From Gammaproteobacteria bacterium (GTDB taxonomy: Bacteria; Pseudomonadota; Gammaproteobacteria; Steroidobacterales; Steroidobacteraceae), in contig JADLDF010000182.1 in the NCBI GenBank assembly GCA_020846815.1, positions 1 to 7,129 on the forward strand: a DNA stretch of 7,129 nucleotides, read 5' to 3'. The notes under the pieces are model-generated. The model was not told the origin of the DNA. It made no database searches and worked only from the letters and a program-made list of their open reading frames with translations. Positions 1,801 through 7,129 of this stretch are shown here, piece by piece. The position numbers and the translations under genes are program-made. How positions within the stretch are numbered: position 1 is the stretch's first letter; each line of letters begins with the position of its first letter.

Positions 1801-3720
1801 CTAAGGCTCGGGGCTGCGCACGGGCTGTGGCTGCGCCGTCGTGAACACATCCGTGAAACAGGCGTCCTCGCTGAGCCCCTGCGCAAGGAAGGCCGGCACC
1901 GCACTCGACACCATCTGCACGGAGCCGCAGACGTAGACCTCGTGGCCCTTCAGGTCCGGGAAGTCCTCGAGTATGGCCGTATCCACGTGGCCGGTGCGCC
2001 CCTTCCACTCGGCCGAGGTTTCCCGCGAGAGCACCGGAATGAAAGTGAAGTTGTCGTGTTCGCGCTGCCAGCGCTCGCATTCCTGCTCCATGTAGAGGTC
2101 GCTGCGGTGACGCACGCCCCAATAGAGCCGCATCGGCCGCCGGATGCCGCGGTGGAAGGCATCCTCGACGATGCTCTTGAGGGGCGCGAACCCGGTGGAC
2201 GTGGCGACGAGCAGGATCGGCCTCTCGCCCGGGTGCAGCGTGAAGCGGCCGAAAGGGCCTTCGATCCGCAGGGTGTCGCCGACCTTCAGGGAGGTGAATA
2301 CGCGCGGCGAGAACGCCCCGCCCGGAACGAGCTTGATGTGCAGCTCGATCAGTGCGTTGTCGTGCGGTGCGTTGGCGAACGAATAGGCGCGCGCCTGCCC
2401 GTCCTCGAGCAGGATGTTGATGTACTGGCCGGCGCCGAACTCGATGCGCTCGCCGCCCGGCAGCGACAGCATGATCAGCATGACGTCGTCACTGAGCAGG
2501 CGCATGCTCTCGACGCGCGCCTCGCGCTGCAGGATGGGCGCCACGCCGCCCGGATCGATGGACTCCACGTCCACTTCGATCGCGACGTCGTTGAGCGCCG
2601 TCGCACAGCACATCAGCGTCTTGCCTTGCGCCCGCATGGCATCGGTCAATGCCGCGGGCTGATACATGCCGTGGTCGACCTCGCCCTGCAGCACGCTGCA
2701 GACGCAGACCTGGCAACCGCCGTTGCGGCATTCGTAGGGCAGCGCGAGACCGGCCCGCAATCCGGCTTCGAGCAGCGTCTCGCCCGGCATCGCGGTGATC
2801 CGCCGCGGTCCGGGATGCACCTCAATGTGCATCTCCTGTCGCCTGGCGCCGCGGCGCAGGCGCAGCCATGGCAGCAGGGTGAGCAGCACGGAGATGCCGA
2901 TGGCCAGCGCCCAGGTCTCGCCCAGCGGCATCGAATAGATCAGGGGGAAGAACCCGAGATAGAACCAGTCCAGCGCGACCTCGCTCACCGCCGTGGCGAG
3001 ATCCGCAGGCCCGCCCTGGCTCAGCACGGGCTGCCACAGTGACATCAGCACCAGCATCGCCGTCAGCCCGATCGCGATCGGCCGTGGCGGCTGGGTGTTG
3101 GCCTTGGGCACCCGCTGGATGTGCACCCACATCAGCAGCAGCGTCAGCAACGGCGCGCCGATGTGCATGAAGACGAGCAGGGAGAAGAAGCGATCGTCGA
3201 CGCTCTCGGGGTAGATCACGTTGCGGATCAGGCTGCCGCCGAAGCCGGGCAGCCAGTCGAGCCACTCGAAGCTCGCGACGGTCACGAACTGGGCCAGCCG
3301 GTCCCACGGCAGCATGTAGCCGCCGATGCCGCTGACATAGACGAACCAGATCAGGGCGACGCCCGTGACCCACGCGAACCAGCGGAAGTCGCGCAGACGG
3401 TCGAAGGCGAAGCAGCGCAGCATGTGCACGAACATCAGCACCACCATGCCGTCGGAGGCATAGCGGTGCGCGCTGCGCATGATGCCGCCGGCGAAGCGCT
3501 GGCCGTGGGTCAGCGCCTCGACCGAGGCATAGGCGCCATTGACTGCGGTATCGAAGAATATGAACAGGTACAGGCCCGTGGCCGCCACGATCCAGAAGAG
3601 ATAGAAGAGGATGGCGCCGAGGTAATAGAGCGGATTGAGGCGATCACCGAAGGCCCGGTTGAAGACCGCTTCTGCATACATGAACAGCCAGCGGATGAAT
3701 CTCTGCAGTCCCCGGATCAT
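1801..3720 (-). CDS. Cytochrome b - 2Fe-2S ferredoxin - FAD/NAD(P)H reductase fusion protein
   Basis: A 639-residue three-module redox protein. Residues 1-290 are a cytochrome b/b6-type membrane domain: helix B carries H85 and H99, helix D carries H186 and H200, both pairs 14 apart as in bc1/b6f, so two b-hemes are expected. About six helices end at roughly residue 286 with an Arg-rich RLRRGARR, which by the positive-inside rule puts the rest in the cytoplasm. Residues about 297-385 are a plant-type ferredoxin (C331, C336, C339, then C371 or C372). Residues about 395-635 are a ferredoxin-NADP reductase-like module: FAD motif RAYS (444-447), GPFGRF (488-493), nucleotide motif ATSTGFAP (506-513) and CGS (598-600). 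The canonical Qo motif PEWY appears as LDWF (250-253). Likely role: electron transfer between NAD(P)H and membrane hemes or quinone; direction and acceptor are inferred. The start overlaps the upstream stop (ATGA). Last gene of the operon. Confidence 0.92.
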   Translation of the reverse strand: MIRGLQRFIRWLFMYAEAVFNRAFGDRLNPLYYLGAILFYLFWIVAATGLYLFIFFDTAVNGAYASVEALTHGQRFAGGIMRSAHRYASDGMVVLMFVHMLRCFAFDRLRDFRWFAWVTGVALIWFVYVSGIGGYMLPWDRLAQFVTVASFEWLDWLPGFGGSLIRNVIYPESVDDRFFSLLVFMHIGAPLLTLLLMWVHIQRVPKANTQPPRPIAIGLTAMLVLMSLWQPVLSQGGPADLATAVSEVALDWFYLGFFPLIYSMPLGETWALAIGISVLLTLLPWLRLRRGARRQEMHIEVHPGPRRITAMPGETLLEAGLRAGLALPYECRNGGCQVCVCSVLQGEVDHGMYQPAALTDAMRAQGKTLMCCATALNDVAIEVDVESIDPGGVAPILQREARVESMRLLSDDVMLIMLSLPGGERIEFGAGQYINILLEDGQARAYSFANAPHDNALIELHIKLVPGGAFSPRVFTSLKVGDTLRIEGPFGRFTLHPGERPILLVATSTGFAPLKSIVEDAFHRGIRRPMRLYWGVRHRSDLYMEQECERWQREHDNFTFIPVLSRETSAEWKGRTGHVDTAILEDFPDLKGHEVYVCGSVQMVSSAVPAFLAQGLSEDACFTDVFTTAQPQPVRSPEP

Positions 3721-5132
3721 TCGATCGCTCTCGACGCGCCGTCACCTCGCATCGAGCGTGCCACGACGACCACGAACAGCAGCCCGCCGATGATGGCGAT
3801 CAGGCCGCCGAGCCCCATGAGGCCCATGCCGATGACTTCAGGTGTGCTGCGCAGCACCTGCTCGGCACCGGCCACCTTGCGCTGCACACCATAGCCGCCC
3901 GACCAGACGAGACCGATGATGTGCAGCAGCTGACCCGAGCCGTAGAACACCGGCTGCCAGAAGGCGAGACGACCGTCCGGCGCCCGATAGCCCAGGCGCG
4001 GCAGCAGCAGGTAGACGAGGCCCATCAGCGCCAGCGTCACGCCGACGATGCAGCCGTGGTAGTGCGCCGGGATGCGCACGTTGTTGCCGCTGATCAGCGC
4101 TCCGATGACTCCGCCGGCGCCGAACAGCACGATGGAGGCCACCAGCGCCGCGCGCAGCGGCGGCGCAGCAGCATCCCGTGGTACACGGGTACTCAGCAGG
4201 CCGGCCACGACCGCGAGCGCGACCGGCACGATGGCGACGCCGCCGCCCAGCCGCATCGCCCAGGTATTGATGAGCCGGAATTCGACCGAGGTGACGCTGG
4301 CCGCGAGATAAGCGAGCGGAGTGGCGAATACGCTGACCAGCGCCAGCGCGAACAGCACCACGATCAGCCGCGGGCTGAGAGAGACGCGGACGCCCGTCGC
4401 GCGCGCGAGCCACAACCATCCGACCAGCATCAGGATCGTCCAGACGAACTGCAATGCGTGGCCGCCGCCCCAGAACAGGATCTCGAAGTAGGTCGTGGTA
4501 TCGAGCGAGCGCGGCACGAGCAGCAGCGATGCGCCGAAGGACAGCACGGCGACGGCGGCCGCCACCACGCTGGTATTGACGCCGAAGCGCAATGCTCCCT
4601 CCTCGGCGAGGCCAGGGCCCGTCGGCCGCGTGGCAATGAGGCCGCGCAGCACCAGCGCGGCGCTGCCCACTCCGAACACCGCGAGACCTGCCAGGAACAT
4701 CGGGCCGTCGACGACCGGGATGTAATTCGCCATGACGGGCGTGGCGTGGCCGGTGAACGGGGCCACCGACATCAAGGCGGTCCCCGCTGCACAAAGGCCG
4801 AGCGCGAGCCACGCCAGTCCCGGCGCTCGTTCCGAGCCGCTGATCGTCCAGAGCAGGCCCGCCAGGGAGGCCAGCCAGACCAGCACCGAAAGATCGACGT
4901 GCACGATCAGCGCGACGCGGAAGAAATCCGCGACGGGCAGCCATTGATTCAATTGCGGCGTGCGGGACAGCACCAGCAGGACCGCGAACACGCCCGAACC
5001 GGCGAGCGCGAGCAGACCGAGCCACAGCCAGCCCCGGGCGAGACGAGCGAGACCAGGCTGCACGACGAGATGTGCCGAAGCCGGATCGACGCCGACGACC
5101 GGGTCGGGAACGGAGACCAGGACGCGGCTCAT
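3717..5132 (-). CDS. Heme-copper oxidase-like membrane subunit lacking the CuB His-His pair
   Basis: A 471-residue protein with about 12 hydrophobic helices, the core fold of heme-copper oxidase subunit I. H78 (helix 2) and H359 (helix 10) match the low-spin heme ligands, and H357 in PAHYHG matches the high-spin heme ligand. H225 in FWGGGHALQF (helix 6) matches the first CuB ligand. The two adjacent CuB histidines expected near residues 270-285 are absent; the whole protein has only H21, H78, H129, H225, H357, H359 and H404, and no HH. The position four after H225, often the cross-linked Tyr in A- and B-family oxidases, is F229. Its C-terminal third aligns by eye with the true subunit I in this same operon (PAHYH versus PGHFH; LAFWQP versus LARLQP; GVQRK versus GVSRR), so the two are paralogs. 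It may carry hemes without reducing O2, acting in electron transfer, assembly or sensing. Both ends are set by ATGA overlaps. Confidence 0.85.
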   Translation of the reverse strand: MSRVLVSVPDPVVGVDPASAHLVVQPGLARLARGWLWLGLLALAGSGVFAVLLVLSRTPQLNQWLPVADFFRVALIVHVDLSVLVWLASLAGLLWTISGSERAPGLAWLALGLCAAGTALMSVAPFTGHATPVMANYIPVVDGPMFLAGLAVFGVGSAALVLRGLIATRPTGPGLAEEGALRFGVNTSVVAAAVAVLSFGASLLLVPRSLDTTTYFEILFWGGGHALQFVWTILMLVGWLWLARATGVRVSLSPRLIVVLFALALVSVFATPLAYLAASVTSVEFRLINTWAMRLGGGVAIVPVALAVVAGLLSTRVPRDAAAPPLRAALVASIVLFGAGGVIGALISGNNVRIPAHYHGCIVGVTLALMGLVYLLLPRLGYRAPDGRLAFWQPVFYGSGQLLHIIGLVWSGGYGVQRKVAGAEQVLRSTPEVIGMGLMGLGGLIAIIGGLLFVVVVARSMRGDGASRAIE

Positions 5133-5650
5133 CGGATGGTGATCGCGCCGCGCGCGGCCTCGAAGTCGATGACCAGGATCTGCGCCGGCCGCAGGTCCAC
5201 GGAGGTCGCGGCGCGGAAGTTGAAGTCCTCGATGCCGGCCCGGTCACGCAGCCGCACGGCGATGTCGTGGGGACCGGTGGTCGTCACCAGCCGGTGATAC
5301 AGCGTCGCACGGCCGTCGCGCGCGAGCCCCGAAGGCAGCGCCTCCTGCCGCAGCACCCGTCGTCCGTCCACGTCGACCTCGGCCACGAGCGGCGCACGCT
5401 CCCGCGGACAGTCCATCGGCACCCGCATGTTGGGCGGCAGTTTCGCCAGCTCTTCCGGCGTCCGCTGGGTGCATGCCTGTACCCGCTGGGGCTCGTGGAC
5501 GACGCTCAGCTTGATCAGCGCCTGATCGGGCCCGAGCTGGCGGTACGCCGGCCAGTTGGCAAACACGACGAGGACCGCGGCCAGCGCGGCATAGAGCACG
5601 ACCTGCCCGATCACGGACGTGGCGTCCAGTTTGTGGTGTTGTGGGGTCAT
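5129..5650 (-). CDS. Membrane-anchored protein of unknown function in oxidase operon
   Basis: A 173-residue protein that I cannot assign to a named family. After a short polar N-terminus (MTPQHHKLD) there is a single hydrophobic helix at about residues 13-31, with no obvious signal-peptidase site, so it is probably anchored with the remainder in the periplasm. The soluble part contains C60 and C81 flanking a Pro-rich segment (RTPEELAKLPPNMR), then a predicted beta-rich region ending in a strand-like ILVIDF. The two cysteines could form a disulfide or bind copper, but there is no CxxC or CxxxC motif. The frame stays open upstream to 5815; I chose the ATG at 5650 because it overlaps the SCO stop as ATGA and gives a sensible N-terminus, while the upstream extension is Arg-rich and lies over SCO coding sequence. 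Position between the SCO protein and the oxidase paralog suggests a role in oxidase assembly or as a small accessory subunit. Confidence 0.78.
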   Translation of the reverse strand: MTPQHHKLDATSVIGQVVLYAALAAVLVVFANWPAYRQLGPDQALIKLSVVHEPQRVQACTQRTPEELAKLPPNMRVPMDCPRERAPLVAEVDVDGRRVLRQEALPSGLARDGRATLYHRLVTTTGPHDIAVRLRDRAGIEDFNFRAATSVDLRPAQILVIDFEAARGAITIR

Positions 5651-6525
5651 GAGCGGAGGCTCAGCGCGGCACGACGCCGCAGAACCCGTGCGCTGCGCCG
5701 TTCTCTGATCGCGAACCACAGCATGGCCACGATGAACGTCAGACCGCCGGCGATCTCGATGTAGAGCGCGTAGCTCACGCGATACTTGCCGGTGGTCGAA
5801 TCGTAGACCGAGCACAGGATCCGCACTCGATCGAGCAGATCGGCGATTCCGGAAGAGTCCTGCAGCATGCGGCCGGCGATCAGGCGCCTGAGCGGCTCGC
5901 CGAGGGACTCTGCGGAAAATGCATCCCCGAGCACCTGTTGCCTGATGCGCCCCTCGGCATCGAGGATGCTCACCTGCAGCGTGTGATCGAAGCCGCTCGA
6001 CGTCGCAACGTAGCTGAACCCGAAATCACGGGCCAGCGCCTCGACGTCCTCGCTGCGCGGGCTCACGAACTCCCAGTTCGCGTCCCTGATGCGCCGCTGT
6101 GCGGCATAGCTGCGCAGCGCCGCCGGCGTGTCGGTCGGCTGATCGAAGCCGATGCTGAGCACCTGGAACTGGTCGCTGCCGAAGCGGTCGCGCATGGCGT
6201 CCACGGCATTGCGCAGCACCACGGTGCTGCTCGGACAGACCTCGAAGCAGCCGGTGTAGATGAAGTTCACCAGCAGCGGCTTGCCGCGGTAGTCCGACAG
6301 CCGCACTTCGCGATCGCGCCGGTCGCGCATCGGGAAGTCTCCCGGAACCCGGCCGACGGCGGAGCGGCTGGCCGCCAGCGCCGCCTCCCGGTCGAGACCC
6401 TTGCGATCGTAAGCCGATCCGGAATCGGCCTCGGCGCGCAGCACTGCCGGCAGCAGCAGCGCGATGACCATGATCAGCGCGCCGGTTTGCGGTCTTCCTC
6501 CGGTGCGGATCAGCTCAAGCCCCAT
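5647..6525 (-). CDS. SCO1/SenC-family copper chaperone with C-terminal membrane helix
   Basis: Thioredoxin-fold, membrane-bound, periplasm-facing protein that in this family delivers copper to, or reduces the thiols of, a cytochrome oxidase copper site. The copper-binding set is complete: C93 and C97 in YTGCFEVCP (CxxxC) and H181 in FDHTLQV. The N-terminus has basic residues, then a hydrophobic segment at about 16-29 and a possible cleavage after LRA. Unlike minimal SCO proteins it continues past the thioredoxin fold with a segment at about 236-250 (ILCSVYDSTTGKYR), a second helix at about 253-272 and an Arg-rich tail; 292 residues in all. The ATG at 6525 overlaps the oxidase gene end by 16 bp; ATG 6471 is an alternative but removes the basic n-region. 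Neither has a well-placed Shine-Dalgarno. The stop overlaps the next gene as ATGA. The adjacent oxidase subunit supports a CuA or CuB delivery role. Confidence 0.92.
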   Translation of the reverse strand: MGLELIRTGGRPQTGALIMVIALLLPAVLRAEADSGSAYDRKGLDREAALAASRSAVGRVPGDFPMRDRRDREVRLSDYRGKPLLVNFIYTGCFEVCPSSTVVLRNAVDAMRDRFGSDQFQVLSIGFDQPTDTPAALRSYAAQRRIRDANWEFVSPRSEDVEALARDFGFSYVATSSGFDHTLQVSILDAEGRIRQQVLGDAFSAESLGEPLRRLIAGRMLQDSSGIADLLDRVRILCSVYDSTTGKYRVSYALYIEIAGGLTFIVAMLWFAIRERRSARVLRRRAALSLRS

Positions 6526-7129
6526 ACGGTCGACAGGTACTTCCAGTTCACGAAGTAGTACAGGACGAATGCAACCAGGAAGACCATCGCCAACGCAAAC
6601 GTGCCCGGGGCCGCGAAGCCCTGAGAGCCGTAGCCCTGCGCGACCGCTGCGGGCGCCATGAGGGGCGTCGGCTCGCGGGCGACGCTCGCGGCGCCGCCTT
6701 CGACCCGCTTGCCCCAGAGCAGCGAGCCGACCGTCACGTAGACGTAGATGGCTCCACCCACGATCGCGGCAACCCCGGAAATGCCGACCAGACCCATCAT
6801 CAGATAGGCGGCACCGGGCCATTCATAGGCCATCGGCATGCCCGCGAAGGCCATGTCCCAATGCCGTCGCGACACACCCAGCGTGCCCGCGCCCATCATG
6901 ACGAGGCAGAAGAAGTACATCGAGAACCCGAACAGATAGGGTTGCAGCCGCGCCAGCCCGGGGTTGATCACCTCGCGCTTGAACAGCGTCGGGATCAGGT
7001 AATAGGTCAGCGCCATGAACGTGAGCGTCGTACCCACGACCACCGTGGCGTGGAAATGCCCCGGCACGTAGATCGTGTTGTGGATGATCATGTTGAGCTG
7101 CTCGGTGCCCATCATCACGCCCGAGATGC
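6510..7129 (-). CDS. B-family (ba3-like) cytochrome c oxidase subunit I, C-terminal part, cut by window edge
   Basis: Catalytic subunit I of a heme-copper oxidase; only the last 205 or so residues are in the window, and the frame is open to the right edge, so the start, the CuB ligands and the family-defining helix 6 lie outside. The motif HNTIYVPGHFH (histidine codons at 7056-7058 and 7050-7052) holds the high-spin and low-spin heme ligands of helix 10, and its VPGHFHxT form is typical of B-family oxidases. Helix 11 follows (LQPYLFGFS onward), then GVSRRHWDM, helix 12, a soluble linker, and one more hydrophobic helix (FALAMVFLVAFVLYYF). The extra C-terminal helix fits the 13-helix B-family plan. 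An NO reductase is less likely on the PGHFH pattern, but a NO-reductase-like variant cannot be excluded without helix 6. It reduces O2 and pumps protons in the inner membrane. The gene end overlaps the SCO start. Confidence 0.9.
   Translation of the reverse strand, partial: ISGVMMGTEQLNMIIHNTIYVPGHFHATVVVGTTLTFMALTYYLIPTLFKREVINPGLARLQPYLFGFSMYFFCLVMMGAGTLGVSRRHWDMAFAGMPMAYEWPGAAYLMMGLVGISGVAAIVGGAIYVYVTVGSLLWGKRVEGGAASVAREPTPLMAPAAVAQGYGSQGFAAPGTFALAMVFLVAFVLYYFVNWKYLSTVWGLS

Follow-up and report, generated by a model that had tools for sequence, protein, structure and literature searches.

A cytochrome b–ferredoxin–reductase fusion encoded with eNOR-type genes, a possible entry point for cytoplasmic electrons

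The stretch of DNA analysed here (the window) is 7,129 nucleotides long and comes from a Gammaproteobacteria bacterium of the Steroidobacteraceae. Its reverse strand (-) carries a gene cluster that opens with the C-terminal 205 aa of a heme-copper subunit I (6510..7127), cut by the window end. This is followed by a SCO1/SenC copper chaperone (5647..6525; the start is uncertain, with an ATG at 6525 or 6471), a 173 aa protein designated small4 (5129..5650), which has one N-terminal membrane helix and a beta-sandwich with two invariant Cys, and a 471 aa homologue of heme-copper oxidase subunit I with a COX1 match, designated HCO-like5 (3717..5132). The last gene (1801..3720) is a stop-free frame of 639 aa encoding a fusion of cytochrome b, [2Fe-2S] ferredoxin and FAD/NAD(P)H reductase. 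ATGA overlaps of 4 nt couple SCO to small4, small4 to HCO-like5, and HCO-like5 to the start of the fusion. Between subunit I and small4 the window has neither cyoE nor the cytb-FeS-FlpD gene described below, and loci L002, L004 and L005 are alike in this. On the forward strand (+), positions 1-1668 hold the molybdate ABC transporter gene modC (TIGR02142 above cut-off) and, by sight, an apparent ModB fragment; these genes converge on the fusion gene and are consistent with a nitrate-reducing host.

The four domains of the fusion, all on the (-) strand, each exceed their own Pfam cut-off: Cytochrome_B (3115..3645, aa 26-202, 3.4e-19), Fer2 of the plant-type [2Fe-2S] kind (2596..2820, aa 301-375, 2.2e-15), FAD_binding_6 (2242..2520, aa 401-493, 2.1e-16) and NAD_binding_1 (1903..2211, aa 504-606, 4.6e-23). 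PF00033 scores the cytochrome part at 69.8 bits against a cut-off of 27.2, and both His pairs that ligate heme in this family are present (H85/H186 and H99/H200). The original prediction had read cytochrome b, ferredoxin and reductase in a single unbroken frame and had named the domains to be looked for; every one of them was matched, and the His pairs and cysteines (C331, C336, C339, C371/C372) were found where it had placed them. Among 26 aligned fusion sequences H85, H99, H186, H200, C331, C336, C339 and C371 are invariant. As C372 is only nearly invariant in the same alignment, the fourth [2Fe-2S] ligand is more likely to be C371.

It had also been allowed that the fusion might be a sequencing artefact. 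Searches returned 3478 proteins passing E 1e-3, and among the matches listed, 120 of 120 homologues have the identical domain set. Genomic loci were taken for the best 80 of 295 confirmed relatives, and 79 of these 80 have no internal stop in the fusion. The sole exception is L017, where codon 402 of the matched stretch is a stop; L057 lies at the edge of its contig, and its fusion begins at residue 34. The shared domain set and the stop-free frames show that the fusion is a conserved protein family and no artefact.

The gene partners of the fusion were counted in the 60 of these 80 loci in which the DNA extends 9.7 kb or more upstream of the ferredoxin-reductase part. CuA subunit II, subunit I, SCO and small4 lie upstream of the fusion in 60/60 eligible loci and HCO-like5 in 59/60, being on the opposite strand in L059; a cytb-FeS-FlpD gene is found in 55/60 and cyoE in 51/60. 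The layout is CuA subunit II, heme-copper subunit I, (CyoE), SCO, (cytb-FeS-FlpD), small4 and HCO-like5, together with the fusion. The domains, the invariant ligands and the topology described below support the expected membrane NAD(P)H oxidoreductase carrying two b hemes, but the further claim that it is self-contained is made doubtful by the same partners accompanying it in all 60 eligible loci.

According to the text available from PMC8756737, eNOR is recognised by a Gln at the site of the catalytic Tyr and a cupredoxin subunit upstream. Aligned subunit I sequences of the relatives have the active-site motif HSSQQ in 63/65 rows, the remaining 2 being truncated, so that Gln replaces the catalytic Tyr in all 63 rows spanning the site. 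The A-H-H of the CuB pair is kept in 63/65 rows and the GHFH heme motif in 64/65. Subunit II, whose genes lie outside the window, keeps the C, E, C, H and M of the CuA motif and an upstream His in 59/59 rows, and it stands immediately upstream of subunit I in all 60 eligible loci. Judged by sequence, then, the subunit I of the relatives carries the published mark of the eNOR nitric oxide reductase. The fragment in the window is 92.7% identical to the subunit I of L002 and 85.4% identical to that of L005 over 205 aa, both of which read HSSQQ; it can be assigned to eNOR by homology, the diagnostic residue itself falling outside the window. An sNOR identity was rejected, since the relatives have Gln rather than the required Asn at the active site. 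The proximity to proteobacterial oxidase genes that the original prediction mentioned is real, but its meaning changes, since the neighbouring oxidase has an eNOR signature in the relatives.

The loci share with eNOR (ba3-a1, a B-family heme-copper enzyme) the CuA/cupredoxin subunit II directly upstream, the Gln site and SCO in the operon, and to eNOR as described in the portions at hand of the published accounts they add the fusion, small4, HCO-like5 and often cytb-FeS-FlpD. In the excerpted literature the ba3-a1 subtype was reported to be without the catalytic tyrosine (PMC6431628), and later to be an eNOR with cytochrome c-dependent NO reductase activity (PMC8879329). The nearest PDB relatives of subunit I are ba3-type cytochrome c oxidases. 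Its homologues on a Thermus plasmid and in Thermomicrobium read GHGAQQ. The Thermus thermophilus plasmid locus (L082) holds a core-only eNOR-like pair with GHGAQQ that is annotated as a cbb3-type oxidase; an Rrf2 regulator, a DUF542 protein and a gene annotated as nitrite reductase lie near it. In 25 loci the cluster has a CtaA (heme A synthase) family in its vicinity, named from one representative.

Most hosts of the fusion appear to be denitrifiers. A NirS-type cytochrome d1 domain (E ≤ 1e-80) was found in 40/49 fusion-bearing genomes as against 35/120 order relatives, an excess (Fisher p 5e-10) that is indicative, since different orders and incomplete genomes are pooled in the comparison. 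The comparison set consisted of 120 genomes from the order of one host, with that host included and any eNOR carriers retained, which likewise makes the p-value no more than indicative. NirK occurs in 10/49 hosts, and NirS or NirK in 46/49; the NirS and NirK searches found no NO-forming nitrite reductase in the other 3 of the 49 (G010, G020 and G038). As for other NO reductases, cNOR (E ≤ 1e-60) is present in 6/49 hosts and qNOR (E ≤ 1e-100) in 14/49, the union being 19/49. Of two cultivable hosts with the full cluster, Simplicispira hankyongi NY-02 also has a cNOR and Ramlibacter lithotrophicus RBP-1 a qNOR. At these cut-offs neither was found in 30/49, and 28 of these 30 carry nirS or nirK. 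Since cNOR and qNOR were not found in these 30, their principal NO reductase may be that of the cluster, with the caveat that some genomes are incomplete and that other NOR types exist. Genes for heme d1 were seen close to the cluster in some loci. Downstream of the cluster, UbiD/UbiX- and UbiT/U/V-like genes (O2-independent ubiquinone) were noted by sight in L073, L038, L040, L048 and others.

These data bear on the idea that the neighbouring enzyme is chiefly a high-affinity O2 reductase and that the fusion feeds O2 respiration or scavenging. The closeness of subunit I to ba3-type oxidases in the PDB and the CtaA family near 25 clusters would agree with this, as would sNOR, a related B-type enzyme for which the consulted part of PMC6967387 argues O2 reduction from transcription. 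However, Gln stands in place of the catalytic Tyr in all 63 rows spanning the site, which published tables, as far as they were available, treat as eNOR, and the hosts are mostly nitrite reducers. We regard this explanation as very improbable.

HCO-like5 differs from the subunit I encoded in the same cluster. The His of its helix II, that of helix VI and the H-x-H pair of helix X are kept in 46-47 of 47 rows (46/47 for the helix VI His), and 41/47 retain a lone His at L073 position 294, but the His-His pair of helix VII is found in 0/47. With the heme His kept and the helix VII pair absent, HCO-like5 should bind hemes but have no normal CuB. It was rejected as a catalytic heme-copper oxidase, for which three CuB His are required, and a role as a canonical O2 or NO reductase is unlikely given these residues. 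The protein (3717-5132 in the window) has no match in NCBIfam and no sequence match in the PDB; it seems to represent a separate, uncharacterised family associated with eNOR operons that have two cytochromes or bear the fusion. Small4 was modelled with confidence as a membrane-anchored beta-sandwich and matched no Pfam family. It is present in every non-truncated eNOR locus examined that has a cytochrome b module and in 0/8 of those without one. A sister of the fusion, cytb-FeS-FlpD, combines cytochrome b with 4Fe-4S dicluster motifs and an FlpD/MvhD, Hdr-like module (representative L073:6389-8041). Other Pseudomonadota genomes and a Defluviimonas plasmid have it in eNOR operons that lack the fusion.

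The distribution of these partners was followed in a separate draw of 398 Pseudomonadota genomes, 30 of which have an eNOR subunit I, including G001, the host that centred the draw. The regions of 20 of these 30 were taken, three plasmid loci were included as well, and three loci with short downstream DNA were set aside, leaving 20 loci; HCO-like5 was counted at 40% identity and over 300 aa. In eight of the 20 only the core is present, and cytb, small4 and HCO-like5 are all absent. Another ten have a single cytb-FeS-FlpD; small4 occurs in 10/10 of these and HCO-like5 in 0/10. L122 has the fusion together with every partner, and L140 (G250) has two cytb-FeS-FlpD genes, small4 and HCO-like5. In L140 the NAD(P)H fusion was seen to be absent from the available stretch, as in a natural module swap. 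Taken over the 20 loci, this distribution indicates that small4 accompanies cytochrome b, that HCO-like5 accompanies the fusion or a second cytb, and that one and the same cluster is served by two kinds of cytb, which differ in their cytoplasmic electron module. In a midpoint-rooted tree of 64 of 155 cytochrome b halves, the 32 sampled fusions all fall on one side of one branch (100/99). Going by gene content and sequence, the picture is one of apparently interchangeable cytoplasmic electron modules upon a common membrane part.

SCO in 60/60 eligible loci and the two invariant Cys of small4 also suit a different proposal, by analogy with CcoG: the fusion could be an assembly metalloreductase whose transmembrane hemes reduce periplasmic Cu(II), or disulfides, for the SCO that loads CuA/CuB of eNOR. 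CcoG, as presented in the available sections of PMC8267372, has two ferredoxin-like 4Fe-4S motifs and is reported to work in cbb3 assembly as a cupric reductase; 4Fe-4S dicluster motifs are likewise found in the sister cytb protein. CcoG and the fusion would have in common a membrane protein, an iron-sulfur electron module and, as a proposed role, assembly of a heme-copper oxidase. The same sections describe CcoG as facing the cytoplasm with no transmembrane di-heme, and mention neither a cytochrome b nor an NAD(P)H module; the fusion differs in these respects. Moreover, the fusion is missing from the 8 core-only eNOR loci, 6 of which have SCO within the locus, and an entire second HCO homologue with heme ligands would be a costly assembly factor. 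In our judgement this role is distinctly unlikely.

Hydropathy, with overlapping peaks merged, gives the fusion six membrane helices, A-F, at approximately residues 37-55, 88-109, 112-133, 181-199, 215-233 and 270-288. Helices E and F thus carry the cytochrome part on to aa ~288, where the chain leaves helix F, and the join to the soluble half lies after helix F, as had been anticipated. Stretches rich in Arg and Lys occur at 200-214 (the D-E loop) and beyond 288, and the loops 134-180 and 234-269 are acidic. By the positive-inside rule basic loops face the cytoplasm, and this charge bias would put the N-terminus and the ferredoxin-reductase part in the cytoplasm, beside the H99/H200 heme. From the bc1/b6f family we take H99/H200 to hold the bH-type heme on the cytoplasmic side and H85/H186 the bL-type heme on the periplasmic side. 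In the predicted structure the cytochrome half has low pLDDT.

The best PDB match of this half is cytochrome b6 (7.5e-20), and it shares with the N-terminal half of cytochrome b6/bc1 the di-heme core and the two His pairs. It differs in having two extra helices followed by ferredoxin and reductase, and in reading LDWF for PEWY; D251 and W252 of this motif are invariant in 26 aligned sequences. Its best NCBIfam match, ExtP, is far under the cut-off (101 of 290 bits). A PEWY motif and a complete C-terminal cytochrome b half, with helices G and H, are absent from the fusion, and a complete bc1/b6f-type quinol oxidase cytochrome b was rejected for these reasons.

The bc1/b6f cytochromes handle quinone, and this kinship favours the explanation that the fusion is a non-pumping NAD(P)H:quinone oxidoreductase, in which bH would reduce ubiquinone on the cytoplasmic side and eNOR would be fed via ordinary bc1 and cytochrome c. 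The CuA subunit of eNOR suits cytochrome c, and UbiT/U/V- and UbiD/UbiX-like genes were seen by sight beside some clusters. Against this stand LDWF in place of PEWY and the missing helices G/H, and no Rieske protein was seen among the conserved cluster families scanned, a survey of families run without a Rieske profile. The constant pairing with HCO-like5 and small4, both absent in 8/8 core-only eNOR loci, would also be left unexplained. We consider this explanation unlikely.

The second half of the fusion is closest in the PDB to GcoB (5ogx; 2.8e-50, and 1.9e-27 with Foldseek). It shares the Fer2, FAD and NAD(P)H modules with BenC/GcoB-type and NqrF reductases and has the BenC/MmoC-type domain order. 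Identity with the BenC equivalog was rejected, as NCBIfam NF040810 scored 185.9 bits with 430 required. Those reductases serve soluble oxygenases, P450 or Na+-NQR, whereas in the fusion the module is joined to a di-heme membrane cytochrome. GcoB/BenC-type reductases are NADH enzymes, and this kinship suggests a preference for NADH. NADPH oxidase (NOX) and STEAP reductases also run NAD(P)H–FAD–heme(s) across a membrane. The fusion resembles them only in how it would work, as its heme bundle (PF00033) is unrelated and it has an extra [2Fe-2S] domain.

Since the fusion gene sits with genes of an unusual NO reductase in many denitrifiers, it probably brings cytoplasmic electrons to that membrane system. 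It would not be unreasonable to hypothesise that the fusion is an electron-input arm linking cytoplasmic NAD(P)H, more likely NADH, to the eNOR-type cluster, a reading that we favour tentatively and hold to be plausible, if not quite probable. Hydride would enter the C-terminal FNR-like domain from NAD(P)H, and electrons would pass from FAD to the plant-type [2Fe-2S] cluster and heme bH, all on the cytoplasmic side, and then across the membrane to heme bL at the periplasmic side. From heme bL they may go to the co-encoded membrane partners, the heme-only HCO-like5 and the anchored small4, and from these to the CuA/heme-copper eNOR, where NO would be reduced to N2O. Such a route to NO reduction would bypass complex I and bc1. 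The order of cofactors and the cytoplasmic entry point follow from the domains and topology, and eNOR is proposed as the acceptor from the fixed gene partnership only. We infer both the direction of electron flow and its destination, taken to be eNOR and not quinone or, for assembly, Cu(II). The earlier suggestion that the protein might run in reverse to make reductant finds no support in the present analysis.

Several points count against an input arm. A CuA subunit is normally served by periplasmic cytochrome c and needs no cytb, and electron flow from cytoplasm to periplasm spends membrane potential. Some hosts also have cNOR or qNOR (19/49) or lack a detected NO-forming nitrite reductase (3/49), and eNOR/ba3-a1 is cytochrome c-dependent according to the part of PMC8879329 at hand. 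As 8/20 loci have eNOR but no cytb module, the Thermus one among them lying close to a gene annotated as nitrite reductase, the arm would be dispensable for NO reduction as such.

An extension of the input-arm reading, which we think rather unlikely, is that the cluster forms a single membrane super-assembly, supplied with electrons from NAD(P)H by the fusion and, in most hosts, from a ferredoxin/FlpD-linked pool by the sister, with the CuB-less HCO-like5 relaying them through the membrane to the CuA of eNOR. If true, NO could be respired with NADH and neither complex I nor bc1, and a catalytically silenced heme-copper subunit would have a new role.

The eNOR enzyme, cytochrome b and the reductase fold are already known; in the open-licence full-text literature we found no description of eNOR operons that include the fusion, its cytb-FeS-FlpD sister or the CuB-less homologue. 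Enzymes of the eNOR type produce N2O, a greenhouse gas. With a copper-less HCO homologue and a cytochrome b linked to NAD(P)H constantly present in one operon, a direct cytoplasmic route becomes testable. Together, the fusion and HCO-like5 are a marker by which such eNOR operons can be recognised. In the source annotation, genes of such operons carry labels such as 'FAD-binding oxidoreductase' or 'cbb3-type cytochrome c oxidase subunit I'.
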